The translations under genes and the position numbers were made by a program. From Nitrosomonas sp. (lineage in GTDB: Bacteria; Pseudomonadota; Gammaproteobacteria; Burkholderiales; Nitrosomonadaceae), in the NCBI GenBank assembly GCA_031316255.1, contig JALDQW010000001.1, positions 1,302,001-1,366,000 of the forward strand: 64,000 nucleotides of DNA. The letters run 5' to 3'. The notes under the pieces were generated by a model. The model did not search any database, was not told where the DNA came from, and worked only from the letters and a program-made list of their open reading frames with translations. How positions within the stretch are numbered: the stretch's first letter is position 1; every line of letters starts with the position of its first letter. Positions 1 to 9,486 of the stretch are shown here, piece after piece.

Positions 1-903
1 AACATTAAAAATAGTACGGTTACCTTGGTGGATCTCGCGATGGGAACAGCAAAAAAGACCATACAGGTTGCTGCTGGACCCGATCAAATTGTGTTATCGG
101 CCGAATATGCCTATGTGCGCGGACAAAATTCAAACAATGTTTCGGTAATCAATTTACGTGAAGCCGCACGAGGGCGATTACAGGCAGCGCAAGTACAGAT
201 GGGGCGACTTGCGCCTAACGCGGTCAGTGAAGAAATCGGAGTCGCGCCAATGATTGTGCCGGTGCCAGAAGGAAATGGCGTCATTGCGGCTAATGCAGCG
301 GATGGCATGCTATATCAATACACTGAAGGATTAATGGCGCCATCAGGCAGCTTTAGCAATTATCGCCGCAAGGCGCGTGCTGTTATGATCATGGATTACG
401 GTTTAACAGAGGACGACGCAGGCGTATATGCGGCTCCAGTTAATTTTCCGTCTGCGGGTACTTATGAAGTAATAGTCAAGTCACTCTCGCCCGCAGTTAC
501 CGCCTGTTTGCCGATTGTTGTACGTATGCCAGACTCTAAGCCTGAAGAACGCATAAACTCGGTACATGCGGTTTTGCTGAATGAATCAGCTACTTTAGTA
601 AAAAAGCAGCATACTTTTAGAATCGGAGTGAAGGATTCTCGGCAACAAGAAATTAATGGTATTACAGATGGCATCCTGCTGGTTTTTCACCGTACTACCG
701 GTTGGCAAACTCGTCTGGTTTTGCGAGAAGAAGAGGCAGGAATTTATGCAGCATCTGCACAGCTACCTTATCCAGGGCGCTATGAACTTTTGGTGAGTGT
801 TCCTTCGCACAAGCTTGATTTTACCTTGGGACGGATTGGATATTTGGATCTTGAATCTACTGCTGATACAGCACAGAGGCGGCAGAATGTTAAAGCAGAT
901 TAA
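1..903 (+). CDS. YVTN beta-propeller protein, C-terminal part (5' end outside window)
   Basis: The frame is open from base 1, so the gene starts upstream and this is its 3' part. The first residues (NSTVTLVDLAMGTAKKTI) look like a blade of the YVTN/cytochrome d1-type beta-propeller family, which is usually periplasmic. After the propeller come two similar beta domains of about 75 residues, one ending DDAGVYAAPVNFPSAGTYEV and the other EEAGIYAASAQLPYPGRYEL; they resemble YtkA/FixH-like folds. The stop lies 17 bases inside the next gene, a Sco-like copper protein, so the two are translationally coupled. A scaffold or electron-transfer partner role in a copper/haem periplasmic system is inference. 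No catalytic residues can be assigned from this part alone. Confidence 0.75.
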   Translation, partial: NIKNSTVTLVDLAMGTAKKTIQVAAGPDQIVLSAEYAYVRGQNSNNVSVINLREAARGRLQAAQVQMGRLAPNAVSEEIGVAPMIVPVPEGNGVIAANAADGMLYQYTEGLMAPSGSFSNYRRKARAVMIMDYGLTEDDAGVYAAPVNFPSAGTYEVIVKSLSPAVTACLPIVVRMPDSKPEERINSVHAVLLNESATLVKKQHTFRIGVKDSRQQEINGITDGILLVFHRTTGWQTRLVLREEEAGIYAASAQLPYPGRYELLVSVPSHKLDFTLGRIGYLDLESTADTAQRRQNVKAD

Positions 904-1465
904 GTATCTTTGCCTACTCGGTTGCATTGTATTTACCTTAAACGTAGCAAAAGCTGCTACAGGTACGGTGTGGTTAAGTGAAGCTCCCGTTATTCCCAAT
1001 ATAGAACTTACTGATCAGGATGGACACAAAGTTCGCTTGGATGAGCTCATACCGGAACATATCGTGCTCGTAAATTTTATGTTTACGAATTGCAACAGCG
1101 GTTGCTCTCCCCAAACAGCCATTTTACGTGCAACGCAGGAAGCAATCGAAGTTTCCGATCTCAACGGCAAAATACTGTTGATTTCCATAACAGTTGACCC
1201 TTTAACGGATAGTCCCGCTCAATTACGTCATTATGCCGAACGGTTCGACGTAAGGACGGGAGTGGAAAATGGCTGGGTTTTTCTGACGGGTTCGTCTCAA
1301 CAGGTGCGTCGAATCATGCAGTCATTTGGTGAACGAGGTAGCGTACCTGAAGCACATACCAATCTGATTTGGATTGGCAATCAAGCAAAAAAACGATGGA
1401 CACGCACAGCCGCGTTAAATGGCCCTGATGTGCTATCTCGATTGGTCCGGGAGATAACACAATGA
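887..1465 (+). CDS. SCO1/SenC family copper-binding thioredoxin-fold protein
   Basis: A 192-residue thioredoxin-fold protein with an N-terminal signal segment (about residues 1-23). It carries the Sco copper site: Cys69 and Cys73 in NCNSGCSPQ, and a distal His157 in EAHTNLIW. Sco proteins deliver copper to the CuA centre of cytochrome oxidase or act as thiol-disulfide reductases in the periplasm. I chose ATG 887 rather than a longer frame from 797 because it directly precedes the signal peptide, follows a GAGGCGG ribosome site, and overlaps the upstream gene by only 17 bases. It overlaps the next gene by ATGA. No cytochrome oxidase genes lie nearby, so its client may be a protein of this operon. 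Confidence 0.85.
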   Translation: MLKQIKYLCLLGCIVFTLNVAKAATGTVWLSEAPVIPNIELTDQDGHKVRLDELIPEHIVLVNFMFTNCNSGCSPQTAILRATQEAIEVSDLNGKILLISITVDPLTDSPAQLRHYAERFDVRTGVENGWVFLTGSSQQVRRIMQSFGERGSVPEAHTNLIWIGNQAKKRWTRTAALNGPDVLSRLVREITQ

Positions 1466-2871
1466 TACGGCACCTGCTCCGGCACGCGGGTTTCCTGAGC
1501 ACTATGCTGACAGTTACTGCCTTATCGGCTTCATCTGTAATGGATGAAGTACAACTTGGGCGTGCGCTGTATGATGGCAATGTTCTATTTTCCCAAGCGC
1601 CTCAGGTTACCGGCGTACCGTTACCATTGAGTAATGCACATTGCTCAGCTTGTCACGGCCCACATGGTGCAGGGCAGACGGAAGGAGGGATTGCTGCGCC
1701 ACCTGTGCAGTGGCATGCATTGATGGATACGCGTTCCGGTCTTCCTGGTTATGATTCCTCAGAACGGGTGCTAAGTGCTATCGAGAAAGGCAAAGCGCGG
1801 ATATATTACAAGTCTTTGACTGAAGGTATGCCGCGTTTCGAATTGACCAGCGCTGAGCGCAAGGCATTGATCGCATACTTGCGCGTAATTGGTACAGAGG
1901 CAGCCCCTGTACGTGGAGTAACCACTGATACAATCATTCTGGGTACTGCCTTACCGCTTACTGGCATGCAGGCAACAGCTGGAAATTCTATTTTGCGGGC
2001 AATGCAGCAACAAATAGCCGAGATTAATGCAGTCGGTGGAATTTTTGGACGTAGCTTGTTGTTGATTCCGGTGGATGCAGCAACCAATGGATTGGATGCG
2101 GCAATACTTGATTTGATCCACTCGCACAACGTTTTTGCCCTAGTAGGCAGTTGGCTGACAGATCCATCAAATGCTTTGATTGATGCGCTTACAGCAAGCA
2201 ATACTCCCAGCGTTGCAGCGGTCGGAATGACAATTCCGAATCAGCAACATCGGCTGACGACTTACTTGTTGCCGAGTTTACAGCAACAAATTGAATCAGC
2301 CTTATCCATTTTGCAAAAAAAATGTAACTCAAACCTGGATAGTGAAATATGGTACCAGGATGAAAAGAACTTGCCGGCAATAACGGCTATAAGTAAATTT
2401 TATGGAGATGATTCGGTAGCTGGAAAACTGGCGTTACGCGCTATTCATGTTTTACAAGTTGATCAACAACTGAAAGAAACGATTGATTCTCGCCTGGCAG
2501 ATAAATTGATCCTTTTACTTCCGTCGGATGATATCGAGCGCATACGATTTCAACTTGAAGCATCACAGCTCTGTGTAGCAACACTAGCAAGCATATCGGG
2601 TAGTTCATACCATGCCGATCATGCAGCTCAGGTTGTGATCTCCCCAGTACCGCAAGATATGTTGCTTGCCATGGATTTATGGACTGCTTTGGGTAATGCT
2701 GCAATCGGATTGATAGCTGAGGCTATGGCTCGCGCCGGACGTATTCTGGATCAAGATAGATTGATTACAGTACTAGATAATCCTCAGGAATTCGAACCTA
2801 TCCCAGGTTTATCTATTCGATTTACACCTAAAGCCCGACATGCGCTGACTGAAGGTTTTACTTGGCATTAA
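1462..2871 (+). CDS. Cytochrome c fused to ABC-type periplasmic binding domain
   Basis: A 469-residue exported protein with two modules. After a signal peptide (about residues 1-25) comes a class I cytochrome c domain with haem motif CSACH at 61-65 and a likely axial Met123 (EGMPRF). From about residue 152 (TDTIILGTALPLTG) to the end it matches type I periplasmic binding proteins of the branched-chain amino-acid/amide family (LivK-like). Binding proteins of this type are known beside PQQ-alcohol dehydrogenase systems, together with YVTN propeller proteins, but the covalent cytochrome fusion is unusual. No ABC permease or ATPase is in view, so it may sense or bind a ligand and pass electrons rather than feed a transporter; that is inference. 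It starts at the ATGA overlap with the Sco gene. Confidence 0.8.
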   Translation: MIRHLLRHAGFLSTMLTVTALSASSVMDEVQLGRALYDGNVLFSQAPQVTGVPLPLSNAHCSACHGPHGAGQTEGGIAAPPVQWHALMDTRSGLPGYDSSERVLSAIEKGKARIYYKSLTEGMPRFELTSAERKALIAYLRVIGTEAAPVRGVTTDTIILGTALPLTGMQATAGNSILRAMQQQIAEINAVGGIFGRSLLLIPVDAATNGLDAAILDLIHSHNVFALVGSWLTDPSNALIDALTASNTPSVAAVGMTIPNQQHRLTTYLLPSLQQQIESALSILQKKCNSNLDSEIWYQDEKNLPAITAISKFYGDDSVAGKLALRAIHVLQVDQQLKETIDSRLADKLILLLPSDDIERIRFQLEASQLCVATLASISGSSYHADHAAQVVISPVPQDMLLAMDLWTALGNAAIGLIAEAMARAGRILDQDRLITVLDNPQEFEPIPGLSIRFTPKARHALTEGFTWH

Positions 2872-2883
2872 GGAGGATTAACT

Positions 2884-4413
2884 ATGAAAAAGTCAAATTG
2901 GCTAAAATGTTTAATGTTTGCAATCTTAATTGGCACTGCAGGTTGGTCGACTGCTCAGGTGCCGACGTCATCGTTTAGTGTTTTGGGATATATTCAAGAG
3001 CTTGACGTGGATGATCTTGATGATCCTTTATCAAAAGGCTTTATTGTTGTTAATGGATTGCGTATTACACTGCCGAAAAATCTTCTGATTACAATGCCGG
3101 GGCAATACCTGACGCTGAATGATATATTCCGGGGACCACATCCATTTGATGCTGATGGGCTGCTGAAGCCCGCCACAAAACCAAGTGGTTTGGCACTTCT
3201 TGATCGCAATCAGGCTCCAGTGCCACCCACTATCGCACCAGCAGTTCTTTTTGAAGCAGAGATTATAGGTAACATCGTCAATGGTGAATATATCGCCGGC
3301 GTAGTCCGCATATCCCAGGGAGGATTAAATGCCGGGGAAGGTTTTATTCAATCAATCGATTACGAAAAAGGCGAATTGCTTGTCGGCCCTGAAGCTGGAA
3401 CTGGTGTTGCTACGGCCCGCGTGAGAATCAATGATCCGGAGGGAAAATATGGAAAGCTGAATAAGGACAAATTTCCAGAAAACGCTGATGTGATGGACGA
3501 GCGCTTTTCCAGCGATCCAGGCAATGCACCGATTGTCGCCGAGACAGGCTTTCCTATGTGCATCCCGCGTTCAGATCCATCTGTTGAAGATGCGCTTTGC
3601 CCAATTTCCAACCGTCCAGAACCTTTGTCTAAGCGGCGTTTTACTTGCGGTAGCGTCCCGGCGATAGATCCGACAGCCGAACCCCATGCGACCTGTGATC
3701 CAACGAAAAGGATGCCGCTACAACCTGGTGATTTCATCACTTTTTCGGGTATGCTGACAGAAGAAACGCCCAATAGCGGTAACTGGTTTATAGCAGCCCA
3801 TGCGATACAGGCTAAACTGGGCGTTTATACTTCTCCAGGAATCGACCCTGCTTATGTTTTGATTGAAGAAGCTATAGTTGGCACCTTGGGTCAGCCATTT
3901 AGAGGTGTTGATCAGGAAGAAACTTCGCGCTTCCGTTTGGTTGGATTTACAACTGACCCGAGCCGCAGAGTCGACGTTTTTGTTTTAGACTCGCTTTTGG
4001 ATGGTACAGAACAAGAGCGAAGAATGACCACGCTTTTCCCAAGCCCTACAGCTCAAGTAGGACGCATTCGGATAACTTTACCTGCAAAAGCCAATTTTCT
4101 GCCAATTACGCGCGATGTGCGTATACGTATTGAAAATCATGTTTCTTTAGATGTAGGTGGATTGGACTCTGGTCAATATACCGCACCGGTAAGCGAGTAT
4201 ATATATCCTGAAAACACCCGTTTTGGACAACACAAAAATCCCGTATCTGTACCATTCGAAAATTTTTGCTTTCTAAAAAACGGCAGCGGTCCCCTCACCA
4301 CATTAGGTCGATCTGCAACGGGAGCCCCATCAATAGGCCGTTTAATTCCCTTTCCAGATTCCGGGCATGGCGCAGCACAATTACGTGCAGATGGGAACCC
4401 TGCCTGTCTCTAG
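2884..4413 (+). CDS. Secreted protein of unknown function in the Sco/cytochrome operon
   Basis: A 509-residue protein with a clear signal peptide (MKKSNWLKCLMFAILIGTAG, cleaved near AQ-VP). It has a strong Shine-Dalgarno (AAGGAGG, 6 bases before ATG) and starts 12 bases after the preceding stop, so it is the last gene of the operon. I do not recognise a family. The body is rich in beta-prone stretches such as GFIVVNGLRITLP and VRIRIENHVSLDVGG. Cysteines cluster in the middle (MCIPRS, ALCPIS, FTCGS, ATCDP) with one more pair near the C-terminus, suggesting disulfides. No haem CxxCH motif and no transmembrane anchor are visible. It may be a periplasmic or extracellular partner of the copper/haem proteins; its function is unknown. 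Confidence 0.7.
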   Translation: MKKSNWLKCLMFAILIGTAGWSTAQVPTSSFSVLGYIQELDVDDLDDPLSKGFIVVNGLRITLPKNLLITMPGQYLTLNDIFRGPHPFDADGLLKPATKPSGLALLDRNQAPVPPTIAPAVLFEAEIIGNIVNGEYIAGVVRISQGGLNAGEGFIQSIDYEKGELLVGPEAGTGVATARVRINDPEGKYGKLNKDKFPENADVMDERFSSDPGNAPIVAETGFPMCIPRSDPSVEDALCPISNRPEPLSKRRFTCGSVPAIDPTAEPHATCDPTKRMPLQPGDFITFSGMLTEETPNSGNWFIAAHAIQAKLGVYTSPGIDPAYVLIEEAIVGTLGQPFRGVDQEETSRFRLVGFTTDPSRRVDVFVLDSLLDGTEQERRMTTLFPSPTAQVGRIRITLPAKANFLPITRDVRIRIENHVSLDVGGLDSGQYTAPVSEYIYPENTRFGQHKNPVSVPFENFCFLKNGSGPLTTLGRSATGAPSIGRLIPFPDSGHGAAQLRADGNPACL

Positions 4414-4775: not shown

Positions 4776-5534
4776 TTAATTGGTTTTTATACATTGTTTT
4801 CGATGTTTGAAACGGTAAGAATCATTGCCGGTTTCCAGGATGTCGCAATGATGTGTAATACGGTCTAACAATGCAGTGGTCATTTTGGCATCGCCAAAAA
4901 CCTGCACCCATTCACTGAATTTCAGGTTGGTCGTTATAATGAGTGAAGTGCGCTCATACAGCTGGCTGATCAAGTGAAACAGGAGTGCGCCACCTGATTC
5001 CGGGAAAGGCAGATAGCCCAGTTCATCAAGGATGACTGCGTCAATCTGAATGAGCCTTCTGGCCAGGTGTCCGGTTTTATTCAGTTGTTTTTCCTGCTCC
5101 AGCAGGTTAACCAAGTCCACAGCGTTGAAGAATCGAATGCGTTTGCCATGATGAATAGCGGCAACGCCCAGTGCTGTGGCCAAATGGGTTTTGCCGGTAC
5201 CGGTGCCACCGACCAGGATGAGGTTATGTGCATCATCCATAAAAGCAGCCGTTGAGAGCTGTTCTATCTGTTGGCGTGAGAGTGGCGTTTCATTCCAGTC
5301 GAATTTCACCAGGTCGCGGTGGATTGGAAACTTTGCAGCCTTCATCTGGTATTTCAGGCTGCGTAGCTGGCGTTCGGCTATTTCGGCATTGATCAGTTGG
5401 CTTAATACGGTTTCCGGCGATATTTGCTTGCGTTGCGGCATTTCAGCGCTTAACTCAGACCAGGCGTCGCTCATGCCATACAGATGCAATGCTTTGAGTT
5501 GGGTAAGCAAGTCAGTGGACATGGCGGCTTCCAA
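4776..5534 (-). CDS. istB: IS21-family transposition helper ATPase IstB (IS21-A)
   Basis: A 252-residue AAA+ ATPase with Walker [10 protein letters not shown] and Walker [12 protein letters not shown], the DnaC-like fold of IstB. It assists the IstA transposase by assembling target-DNA complexes. It overlaps the 3' end of istA by 23 bases, as is typical for IS21 elements. The gene itself looks intact, so it could still act in trans with a functional IstA, although its own istA is frameshifted. It is close to the usual IstB length of about 250 residues. Confidence 0.92.
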
Positions 5535-7034
5535 GCAAATGATCGTAACGCTGGAAATCGGCCAGCGGTTCAGTGGTTAGTTGTAAGGTATCGCCGGTAT
5601 TCAATGTCTTGGAACGAACTGGTTCAATCAAACGCCGTATAGCATTCTGCAACACACTGGCATTGACAACACCGGATTCCAACGCCAGTTCACAGGCTGT
5701 CTCAAGTGCATCAAGACCGGCTTCGCGGGTCAATAACAACAGATCAACAAAAGCGCGTTCATTTTTATCTTGCTTCTGAAGTTTCTCACGTACGTGACGG
5801 ATCGATTCCGGTAGTTCCCAGTTCTGGAATGGCGCGCCGTGACGGATAGCACCGGGTTTCTTCTCCAGCACGGGCAAATAATGCCATGGATTACAGATCA
5901 GCTGATCGCGCAGGAAATTGCGTTGATGCGTCGCAATCGCTTTTCCCTCCGCCACAATATCAAGATGACCGGCAAATACTCTGACCGAAACCACCTTCCC
6001 GGACCATTGGGCCGGTACACTGTACTGATTCCGGTCAACACGCACCAGGCAGGTTCTGGAGACTTTCATCAGGTGCTCAACATAACCGGCAAATGGTGTT
6101 GTGATTTGCCGCAATAACGGTTGTTCCTGCTGAAAACATTCCGCAATGGTTTGTGCAAAATCAGGATGCTTCCTGTTTGACAGCTCATGACAACGCTGCG
6201 CCAGCCAGCGGTTTAAGTCATCCAGCGTTGCAAACTTTATGCGCGGCGTGAACAGCCATTCTCTGACATTACCCACCTGATTCTCTATCTGACCTTTCTC
6301 CCAGCCGGCCGCCGGCGTGCAGGCAACCGGTTCAAACAAATAGTGATTCGCCAATGCCATAAACCGCCGATTAAACTTTCTCTCTTTGCCCATCAAAACC
6401 GCATCCACAATTGTCTTGGGATTGTCTAAACCATCTGCAGCGGCACGCCACCAAAGAACGCAAATGCACGATTATGCGCATCCATCAGCATCTCCTGCGC
6501 TTCCCTGAAATAAGCGACGACAAACATCTTGCGGCTGTAACACAAACGAAAATGCGCCACCTTGACGACTTGTTCCCGCCCACCCAGATCAACAACTTCC
6601 TGACTCCAGTCAAATTGACAGACTTCACCGGGTTTAAACGCTAAAGGAACAAACGTTTGCCTGGGTGCCGGGGTATCCTTGTTCTCTGCTTTCCACTGCT
6701 TTACAAAACGCCGAACGCTGTCATAAGCGCCTGTATAACCTTCAATTATCAAACCTTCATATAATCGCATTGCTGTTCGACGCTGCTTTTGCGGTAGCAA
6801 TGCCTCTGTTTCCAGCCAACTGGTCAATAACGCTTTAAATTCTCCTAGCTTCGGCGCACATTGCGTTTGACGCCGATATTCCGGTTCAGCCTCCGTCTTT
6901 AAATGTTTCCTGACTGTAGGACGGGACAGCCCCAATGAACGGGCAATTGAACTGATTTTTTCTTTACTGACAAAATGTCGCCTTCTGATTTCGGCAATTA
7001 TATCCATCTCTATCACTCCAAAGTTCTCCAGCAA
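5512..7034 (-). pseudogene. istA: IS21-family transposase istA (IS21-A), disrupted by frameshift
   Basis: Two adjacent minus-strand frames together make a full IstA of about 500 residues. The first half (7034 to 6426) has the N-terminal helix-turn-helix (ISSIARSLGLSRPTVRKHL) and the first catalytic Asp region (CQFDWSQE). It ends at a TAG just after GGVPLQMV. The second half resumes one base out of frame with DNPKTIV and carries the conserved glutamate region (WEKGQIENQVG). Inserting one T would restore the YDN motif, so a single-base deletion inactivates the gene at the second catalytic Asp region. A programmed frameshift or sequencing error is possible but less likely. Confidence 0.85.
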
Positions 7035-7035
7035 A

Positions 7036-8523
7036 ATGCCGGTAATTTATCATCTCAGAGTGGAAACTTTTCAACGCCGATTTTCCGAAAATTCTGGTAA
7101 GTTTTACATGCCGATTTACACGCCAGGTTACCGGCGCAAGAGTTCTCCTGCTTCACCAAAGCTAGCCGCTTTCACTGGCATTATAGATGCCATTCTTGAA
7201 GCTGATAAAACAGTTCATCCCAAACAACGTCATACGGCAACCCGGATATTGGAGCGATTGCGCGATGAACATGGATTCACTGGCGGCTATACCATTGTGC
7301 GTAATTATGTTTATAAAGCCAAGATTCAGCAGAAGGAGATGTTTATGCCGCTGGTCCATTTACCTGGCCACGCTCAGGTAGACTTTGGCGAAGCTGACGG
7401 TTATATTGGTGGCAAGCTGGTACGGTTTCATTATTTCTGTCTTGATCTGCCACATTCGGACGGCTGCTTTGTCAAAGCCTATCCGACGGAAGATACCGAA
7501 TCCTTTCTGGATGGGCATGTTGCTGCATTTGCGTTTTTAGGTGGTGTGCCGCAATCTATTTTATATGACAATACCAGGCTCGCCGTCGCTAAAATACTGG
7601 GTGATGGCAAGCGTAAGCGGACTAAAGCATTCAGTGAACTGCAAAGTCATTATCTGTTTGAAGACAAATTTGGACGTCCAGGGCGGGGTAATGATAAAGG
7701 CAATGTTGAAGGCATGGTTGGTTTCAATCGTCGCCATTTCATGGTGCCGTTGCCGATAGCTGATAATTTTGATGCCTTGAACACCAGGTTGCTGGACGGT
7801 TGTATCAAACGCCAACAAGCTAAGCTACGTGGGCAAACTGAAACCATTGCTGAGCGTATGAAGCGTGATGCTGCTGCACTCATGGCATTGCCTGCAGCTG
7901 AGTTTGATGCATGCCACAAGATTTCGACTCGTGTATCTTCTCTGTCTCTGGTGCGCTATCGAACCAACGACTACTCGGTACCCACTCAGTACGGTCATCG
8001 GGAAGTGCTGGTCAAAGGTTACGTTGATCATGTTGATATTTGTCTGGGTGCGGACACCATTGCACGACATCAACGCAGCTATGGCCGGGAAGAATTCATC
8101 TATAACCCGCTGCATTATTTGGCATTGCTGGAACAAAAGCCGCGCGCATTGGATCAGGCGGCGCCCCTCCAGGATTGGGTGCTGCCCGAAGTATTTGATC
8201 GTTTGCGCCGATTGCTTGAAGCGCGGTTGGAACGGCGTGGTCGCAAGGAATATATCCAGGTTTTGCGGCTACTGGAGAATTTTAGCCAAGCGCAAGTTGA
8301 ACATGCGATAAAAAAAGCGATTGATTTGGGTTCAATTGGATTTGACGCGATCAAGCATCTGATTCTGTGTGCAATTGAACAACGGCCAGCGAAACTCGAT
8401 CTGACGTGTTACCCCTATCTACCCAATGCCAATGTACTACCCACCGAACCTAGGACGTACTTAAGCCTGTTGCAAATATCCGAAGCAACTCAAAAACCTG
8501 TAATGGAGAGTCATTATGAATGA
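7036..8523 (+). CDS. istA: IS21-family transposase IstA (IS21-B), N-terminus replaced
   Basis: The real istA sequence begins at about 7121 (GYRRKSSPASPKLA). The first 28 codons of this frame are read from the end of IS21-A, giving a chimeric start. Comparison with the inverted fragment at 9487-9750 shows that about 48 N-terminal residues with the helix-turn-helix (EREVARYFGIHRETVKKM) are missing. The DDE domain is whole: Asp in HAQVDFGEAD, Asp in ILYDNTRL, Glu in GNVEGMVG. The product, if made, could keep catalysis but would lack the normal end-binding head. It overlaps istB by 8 bases. Confidence 0.8.
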   Translation: MPVIYHLRVETFQRRFSENSGKFYMPIYTPGYRRKSSPASPKLAAFTGIIDAILEADKTVHPKQRHTATRILERLRDEHGFTGGYTIVRNYVYKAKIQQKEMFMPLVHLPGHAQVDFGEADGYIGGKLVRFHYFCLDLPHSDGCFVKAYPTEDTESFLDGHVAAFAFLGGVPQSILYDNTRLAVAKILGDGKRKRTKAFSELQSHYLFEDKFGRPGRGNDKGNVEGMVGFNRRHFMVPLPIADNFDALNTRLLDGCIKRQQAKLRGQTETIAERMKRDAAALMALPAAEFDACHKISTRVSSLSLVRYRTNDYSVPTQYGHREVLVKGYVDHVDICLGADTIARHQRSYGREEFIYNPLHYLALLEQKPRALDQAAPLQDWVLPEVFDRLRRLLEARLERRGRKEYIQVLRLLENFSQAQVEHAIKKAIDLGSIGFDAIKHLILCAIEQRPAKLDLTCYPYLPNANVLPTEPRTYLSLLQISEATQKPVMESHYE

Positions 8524-9486
8524 AACATCGATTTCCACGACAGTTACACCACAGGTTTTGCTGGAGAATCATTTCAAGGCATTGAAGCTTTCGACCTTTG
8601 CTCGTGAATATGAGAAGGTTGCAATCGAATGCGCAAATGAAGGTGTTGATTACGCGCGTTACTTATTACGGTTATGTGAGCTTGAGCGTATCGACCGTGA
8701 GCGACGCAATACTGAGCGGCGTATACGTATGGCAAAATTCCCGGTGATTAAAAGCCTGGATACCTTCGATTTCACTGCAATTCCAGAATTGAATAAATCG
8801 TTGGTATTAGAGCTGATGCGCTGCGAATGGATTGACAAGCGTGAAAATGTCATTGCATTGGGGCCTTCGGGCGTTGGCAAAACGCATACAGCGTTAGCTT
8901 TAGGGCTGGCCGCTTGTCAGAAAGGTTTGAGCGTTGTCTTTAAGACGGCCGCAGCTTTGGTACATGAATTGATGGAAGCGCGTGATGAGAAACGGTTGCG
9001 TCTATTGCAAAAACAGCTGGCTAACACCAAATTGTTGATCATCGACGAACTGGGTTATGTGCCATTTACTGCAGTAGGCGCAGAGCTCTTGTTTGAAGTG
9101 TTTAGTCGCCGTTACGAACATGGCGCCACCCTGGTCACATCGAATTTACCGTTTGACGAATGGACAAGTGTTCTGGGGTCAGAACGATTGACCGGCGCAC
9201 TGCTGGATCGTTTGACCCACCATGTCCATATCCTGGAAATGAATGGTGAATCGTATCGCCTGGCTGCAAGTAAGAAGCGACAAAAACAATCAATGAATTC
9301 CACACTTATAGGAAAGGAGAACACCAAAAAAAATAATGAGTAGTTGGGGAATACACTGCGCTTTATTTCAACCCCGGAATATAAAAAATAAAAGCGCTAA
9401 ACCCGAGGATTAATTCCTCTTTTTTATTAACTTTACTGGTACACTTTTAACGCGCTATCTGGTACATTTTTGCTCCGCTATTGACA
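7121..9486 (+). mobile_element. IS21-family element (IS21-B copy 1), left end missing
   Basis: This carries most of a second, different IS21 element: istA without its first codons, intact istB, and a right end whose outer sequence reads (other strand) TGTCAATAGCGGAGC, with the subterminal motif AAAAATGTACCAG repeated as AAAAGTGTACCAG. The element should begin with a left end before 7121, but that has been replaced by IS21-A. The right end at 9486 abuts the interior of istA from another copy of the same element in inverse orientation. Confidence 0.8.
8516..9343 (+). CDS. istB: IS21-family transposition helper ATPase IstB (IS21-B)
   Basis: A 275-residue IstB-type AAA+ ATPase with Walker A GPSGVGKTH and Walker B LLIIDELGYVPF. 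A GGAG Shine-Dalgarno lies inside the end of istA (AATGGAGAGTCATTATG). It differs clearly from the IstB of IS21-A, so the two neighbouring elements are distinct IS21 types rather than duplicates. The C-terminus is Lys/Gln-rich. It looks intact and could work in trans for other copies in the genome. Confidence 0.92.
   Translation: MNETSISTTVTPQVLLENHFKALKLSTFAREYEKVAIECANEGVDYARYLLRLCELERIDRERRNTERRIRMAKFPVIKSLDTFDFTAIPELNKSLVLELMRCEWIDKRENVIALGPSGVGKTHTALALGLAACQKGLSVVFKTAAALVHELMEARDEKRLRLLQKQLANTKLLIIDELGYVPFTAVGAELLFEVFSRRYEHGATLVTSNLPFDEWTSVLGSERLTGALLDRLTHHVHILEMNGESYRLAASKKRQKQSMNSTLIGKENTKKNNE

Follow-up and report, generated by a model that had tools for sequence, protein, structure and literature searches.

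Four closely coupled genes at the left edge of a 64,000-nucleotide stretch of Nitrosomonas DNA (the window; G000:C1:1302001-1366000 in a complete 3.74-Mb genome) raise the question of which enzyme, if any, they serve. An earlier note, made from the window alone, had suggested that they could form an undescribed ligand-sensing or copper-loading redox module and had ranked them as a candidate new system. We instead consider it likely that they are the last four of the six genes in an operon built around a secreted MnxG-type multicopper oxidase (MCO), acting by the manganese-oxidation mechanism proposed below.

The operon and its surroundings

All four reading frames were confirmed, and the 17- and 4-base overlaps and the 12-base gap between them were exactly as the earlier note had given them. 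The YVTN frame is truncated by the left window edge, and the Sco coordinates are counted from the ATG at 887. In the upstream sequence and its ORF list, a giant MCO gene (P0001) and the p193 gene (P0002) were found on the same strand. The operon is thus G000:C1:1294224-1306413, with six genes and a start 7.8 kb upstream of the window, in the order MCO, p193, YVTN, Sco, cytochrome c-LivK, p509. The four genes do belong to a conserved functional unit, as had been claimed, but that unit does not start at base 1 and is cut by the window edge. The genes, all on the plus strand, are:

G000:C1:1294224-1300388, +, MnxG-type MCO (P0001), 2054 aa; first gene, outside the window
G000:C1:1300400-1300981 (L002:14400-14978), +, p193 (P0002), 193 aa; outside the window
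Window 1..903, +, 3' end of the gene for a YVTN beta-propeller protein with YtkA/FixH-like tails; full gene G000:C1:1300978-1302903, 641 aa
Window 887..1465, +, Sco (SCO1/SenC) copper chaperone, 192 aa; SCO1-SenC E 5e-18; 17-base overlap with YVTN
Window 1462..2871, +, secreted cytochrome c-LivK fusion, 469 aa; Peripla_BP_6 plus cytochrome c; 4-base overlap with Sco
Window 2884..4413, +, p509, 509 aa, secreted, unnamed family; 12-base gap after cytochrome c-LivK; last gene

The MCO lies 11 bases 5' of p193, which in turn overlaps the YVTN gene by 4 bases. This spacing argues against a stand-alone module lacking a dedicated enzyme, the reading that a LivK domain with a possible ligand and a copper-handling Sco protein would otherwise favour. 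YVTN propellers and Sco proteins also occur beside PQQ-alcohol dehydrogenases and terminal oxidases, and the propeller is weakly similar to PQQ-associated and quinohemoprotein propellers; the genes might on these grounds be accessories of such an enzyme. However, the ORF lists contained neither kind of enzyme in 16 kb upstream or 5 kb downstream, and an upstream PQQ dehydrogenase or terminal oxidase, which the earlier note had named as the finding that would overturn its proposal, was rejected for this locus. We regard this explanation as barely conceivable. The enzyme missing from view is the MnxG-type MCO just outside the window.

The YVTN, cytochrome c-LivK and p509 genes are under purifying selection (dN/dS 0.09-0.15 against a close Nitrosomonas relative). 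Among the matches listed, the nearest copy is that of the MAG Nitrosomonas sp. PRO53 (L028; 84% identity). Against this copy p193 has a dS of only 0.16, compared with 0.62-1.44 for the neighbouring genes, which suggests recombination or nucleotide-level constraint. A terminator scan 3' of p509 found none. Directly downstream of the operon, two IS21-like istA/istB pairs lie end to end (window 4776-9343); the minus-strand istA falls in two ORFs (6426-7034 and 5512-6408) and is apparently broken.

Two further features were seen upstream of the MCO. At L002:3093-4269 one ORF resembles a sigma factor and the next a ChrR-like cupin anti-sigma protein, both judged by eye from their translations; stress or metal regulation near the operon is possible. 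P0008 (457 aa; L002:6430-7803, equivalent to G000:C1:1292430-1293803) lies 420 bp upstream of the MCO, is single copy in the genome and joins one CxxCH near the N-terminus to a porin-like remainder, which gives it a possible likeness to Cyc2-type cytochrome-porins. As no other MnxG locus has a relative of P0008, this candidate outer-membrane protein was rejected as an operon partner.

The giant oxidase and its conserved neighbours

P0001 matched the NCBIfam MnxG model NF041487 in seven stretches (806.8 bits, E 3.5e-242) and Bacillus MnxG (PDB 9bxa) at E 9.8e-102. Homology to MnxG spans the whole protein, which also carries a Sec signal peptide. Its copper motifs are HxxHxH (524, 527, 529), HCHxxxHxxxxM (578, 579, 580, 584, 589), HxH (941, 943) and HxH (1078, 1080). 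The type 1 and type 2/3 (T1, T2/T3) copper ligand set is thus complete, and the four motifs are invariant in 69 of 69 relatives. The score of P0001 falls short of the curated NF041487 cut-off of 3100 bits, so that the protein is only a relative of this equivalog, the Pseudomonas-type MnxG.

By length and score there are at least three kinds of MnxG in Nitrosomonas (about 2470 aa, 2054 aa and about 1820-1910 aa), and of these p509 was found only with the 2054-aa kind. The MnxG-like kind of about 1820-1910 aa was seen in the congeneric genomes G562, G572, G590, G608, G611 and G619. The anaerobic archaeon Ca. Methanoperedens nitroreducens (L058, L066), an odd host for an O2-dependent enzyme, also has an MnxG-like MCO with a YVTN gene after it.

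The domain assignments of the earlier note held for the three named accessory proteins. The YVTN tail matched YtkA (1.3e-05) and FixH (0.0039, below Pfam's cut-off). The Sco sequence has a signal peptide, the CxxxC motif as CNSGC and a distal His, and the fusion protein matched Peripla_BP_6 (1.8e-15) and a mono-haem cytochrome c with the motif CSACH (1.2e-06). The copper-handling redox role that had been suggested fits these features. No permease or ATPase partner of the LivK domain was recognised in the ORF lists and translations, which covered 16 kb upstream of the window and 9 kb within it. The operon itself contains neither a LivHMGF permease nor a signalling protein, which again speaks against a stand-alone sensing module. 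Sensing by the LivK domain itself is possible.

A scan based on an MnxG alignment gave at least 79 named loci which, with L024, L025 and the window's own, made 82 loci, their genes ordered by domain position; counts from this set are lower bounds, some loci stopping at contig edges. The core order MCO-YVTN-Sco-cytochrome c-LivK (p193 and p509 ignored) was found in 47 of the 82, in phyla that include Pseudomonadota, Nitrospirota, Acidobacteriota, Myxococcota and Bacteroidota (Aquimarina), and YVTN relatives were present in 65. The linkage in distant genomes which the earlier note had said would support its unit was therefore strongly borne out. Sixteen loci have the exact six-gene order, from taxa including Nitrosomonas, Nitrospira, Rhizobium, Mesorhizobium, Methylocystis, Diaphorobacter, Hydrogenophilales and Siccirubricoccus. 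When co-occurrence was assessed by random sampling of phyla, both genes were too scarce to be informative alone. In most complete loci the core genes come after an MCO, further evidence against a module without an enzyme, which we judge very improbable. Its identity as an operon of the MnxG-type MCO kind is, by contrast, almost certain for the unit studied here.

A FastTree phylogeny was built from 69 MCOs; as this is a single midpoint-rooted tree, its deepest branching order is not trustworthy. Outside Planctomycetota, the p509-bearing MCOs form one clade (support 0.997) with three members lacking p509 (L044, L053, L067); within it, the MCOs of the strict six-gene loci group together (support 1.0). 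The p509-bearing MCOs of Planctomycetota form a separate group nearby. The two-Sco loci of the type known from Pseudomonas putida GB-1 (L024, L025, L097) lie elsewhere in the tree and lack p509. p193 and p509 are hallmarks of a single MnxG clade whose members come from Nitrosomonas, Nitrospira, methanotrophs, rhizobia and acetobacteria.

The p509 and p193 families

p509 (P0006) had been described from the window as a Cys-containing secreted protein of no recognised family, and this was upheld: P0006 matched no NCBIfam model, and the shared core of the family was unmatched by Pfam in 31 members. In the family alignment (n=31) C226 and C508 are among the invariant positions, and C239 and C271 are nearly invariant. 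The AlphaFold2 model is confident (pLDDT 88.2, pTM 0.86) and mostly beta. No PDB chain was matched by sequence, and a Foldseek comparison of the model with the PDB gave nothing at E <= 1e-3, the best TM-scores being about 0.15; as this comparison covered the PDB only, no claim of a new fold is made on it. Tandem DUF5666 domains (OB-fold) were considered for p509 and rejected (hhalign probability 0.1%, with no Pfam match to the core in the 31 members).

p509 is present in at least 39 of the 82 MnxG loci, and in Nitrospira it is often 5' of the MCO. Searches seeded on p509 alone, rather than on MnxG, served as an independent test of this linkage. In G586, p509 adjoins MnxG. Plasmid pRo-1 of Roseomonas gilardii carries the full six-gene operon, with its MCO, p193, YVTN and p509 genes recorded as 'hypothetical protein' and p509 split into two annotated genes. 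In Nitrosomonas G597 (L111:7535-12128), p509 adjoins a three-domain MCO and Sco. On a Paraburkholderia plasmid (L116:7309-18164), two p509 paralogues have as neighbours a three-domain MCO, a fusion of Sco with cytochrome c and a MauG-type peroxidase, and the same locus holds a DUF5666 protein and a type II secretion cluster with pseudopilins. The p509 copies in G002 run off the contig edge and are uninformative. Every informative p509 locus from these searches thus adjoins an MCO and Sco, with two MCO classes represented. As p509 also occurs beside unrelated three-domain MCO-Sco pairs, the family can be described as secreted and MCO-linked. Its probable role is either to help assemble the oxidase or to be a structural partner to it. 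In the Planctomycetota loci L089, L099, L104 and L105, paired and very large proteins of the p509 family (835-857 and 1512-1581 aa) are divergent from the MCO.

A broader reading can be offered only as a tentative and rather doubtful one. It would make p509 a dedicated partner of secreted MCOs, common to the unrelated giant MnxG and three-domain classes and possibly the Gram-negative functional counterpart of Bacillus MnxEF. Its fold would then be one that the PDB still lacks, and its presence would set apart a distinct clade of systems for metal oxidation among nitrifiers, methanotrophs and rhizobia.

p193 is a conserved family of 25 members, and P0002 has no obvious signal peptide. Its model is moderately confident (pLDDT 81.8) and jelly-roll-like, and a sequence search of the PDB gave no match below E 1. 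Assignment as a carbohydrate-binding jelly roll or a BtuJ/DUF4465 protein was rejected, the structural likeness being too weak to indicate a role. p509 and p193 are thus two conserved families without any database entry.

On sequence evidence, some ammonia oxidisers, comammox-type Nitrospira, methanotrophs and rhizobia are predicted to carry a complete MnxG-type metal-oxidase operon. Such organisms share drinking-water filters in which ammonium and manganese are removed together. Since the giant MCOs of this clade are annotated as 'hypothetical protein' in public records, as on pRo-1, the operon is under-counted.

Proposed mechanism and known counterparts

In the proposed mechanism, the oxidase would leave the cytoplasm by means of its Sec signal peptide. 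Sco proteins bring copper to periplasmic copper sites, and the Sco protein of the operon would receive copper in the periplasm and then metallate the oxidase. A metal ion outside the cytoplasm, with Mn(II) the likeliest, would give up electrons singly to the type 1 copper of the oxidase; at the trinuclear cluster these would be handed on to O2, and the product would be a Mn(III/IV) oxide. The propeller-YtkA/FixH protein, the cytochrome c-LivK protein and p509 may be secreted accessories that help in assembly or export, or that transfer electrons or metal, p509 occupying the slot that SurA/PPIase has in the Pseudomonas-type operon.

Homology points to Mn(II) as the probable substrate, and we hold this with modest confidence. 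Fe(II), Cu(I) and phenols are all oxidised by MCOs whose copper sites are the same, and the operon could instead encode a ferroxidase, a cuprous oxidase or an enzyme that oxidises an organic or nitrogen compound. A change of substrate is possible, since the p509-bearing MCOs and the GB-1-like ones fall in different clades and P0001 is far short of the curated MnxG cut-off. Against this, the nearest characterised proteins, Pseudomonas and Bacillus MnxG, both oxidise Mn(II), and the core accessory genes are identical in kind to those of GB-1. Another substrate is a distinct possibility, although we put it at less than an even chance. A literature search found no experimental evidence of Mn oxidation by Nitrosomonas.

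In both Bacillus and Pseudomonas, MnxG uses O2 to oxidise Mn(II) (PMC5622069, PMC11930936). In P. putida GB-1, deletion of mnxG slowed Mn removal tenfold, and an mnxG mcoA double mutant formed no Mn oxide (PMC11930936). The GB-1 mnxG operon (PputGB1_2447 onward) comprises mnxG, a 40-residue YVTN propeller, two SCO1/SenC genes, an 'amino acid/amide ABC transporter substrate-binding protein, cytochrome c domain' and SurA (PMC11409713 Table 4), and Pseudomonas sp. OF001 has the same layout (PMC8218464 Fig. 2). Closer to the window, L025, from the same taxonomic order, has the GB-1 layout including the SurA/PPIase gene, its MCO scoring 2406 bits over the whole MnxG model. In L024, from the same genus, the MCO, YVTN, Sco, Sco and cytochrome c-LivK genes follow in sequence. 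These layouts identify the window genes as the accessory part of an mnxG-type operon. As the published GB-1 operon already holds the MCO, YVTN, Sco and cytochrome c-LivK genes, and a giant MCO lies directly upstream here, the genes are not an undescribed sensing module.

Like that of GB-1, the Nitrosomonas operon begins with a giant MCO, followed on one strand by closely spaced genes for YVTN, Sco and a cytochrome c/ABC-binding-protein fusion. Unlike GB-1, which has two Sco genes and SurA, it has one Sco, and p509 replaces SurA in the last position. It also differs in that p193 is inserted after the MCO, the MCO belongs to a separate clade, and matches to a sigma-54 promoter upstream of the operon are not above chance.

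With the Bacillus Mnx complex (MnxE3F3G; PDB 9bxa) the operon shares a homologous multi-domain MCO with T1/T2/T3 motifs, but Bacillus MnxG has 1227 aa against 2054 aa here. The parts of PMC5622069 on the Bacillus system describe no YVTN or cytochrome genes. Conversely, no MnxE/MnxF-sized gene pair was seen when the ORF lists for the operon were compared by size, p193 and p509 being much larger than MnxE and MnxF (~12 kDa). The mof operon of Leptothrix and Rubrivivax (mofA-mofB-mofC) has a Mip-type isomerase, unlike the Nitrosomonas operon, and also encodes an uncharacterised exported protein (PMC8218464).

A Nitrosomonas europaea MCO of 1886 aa (NP_840402.1), shorter than P0001, was included among prokaryotic six-domain MnxG-like proteins in a 2013 list (PMC3600357), and the enzyme family had thus already been noted in the genus. 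The genes are accordingly not a new system: the core mnxG-type operon is already known from published work, and what is new in the Nitrosomonas version is the p509 and p193 families.
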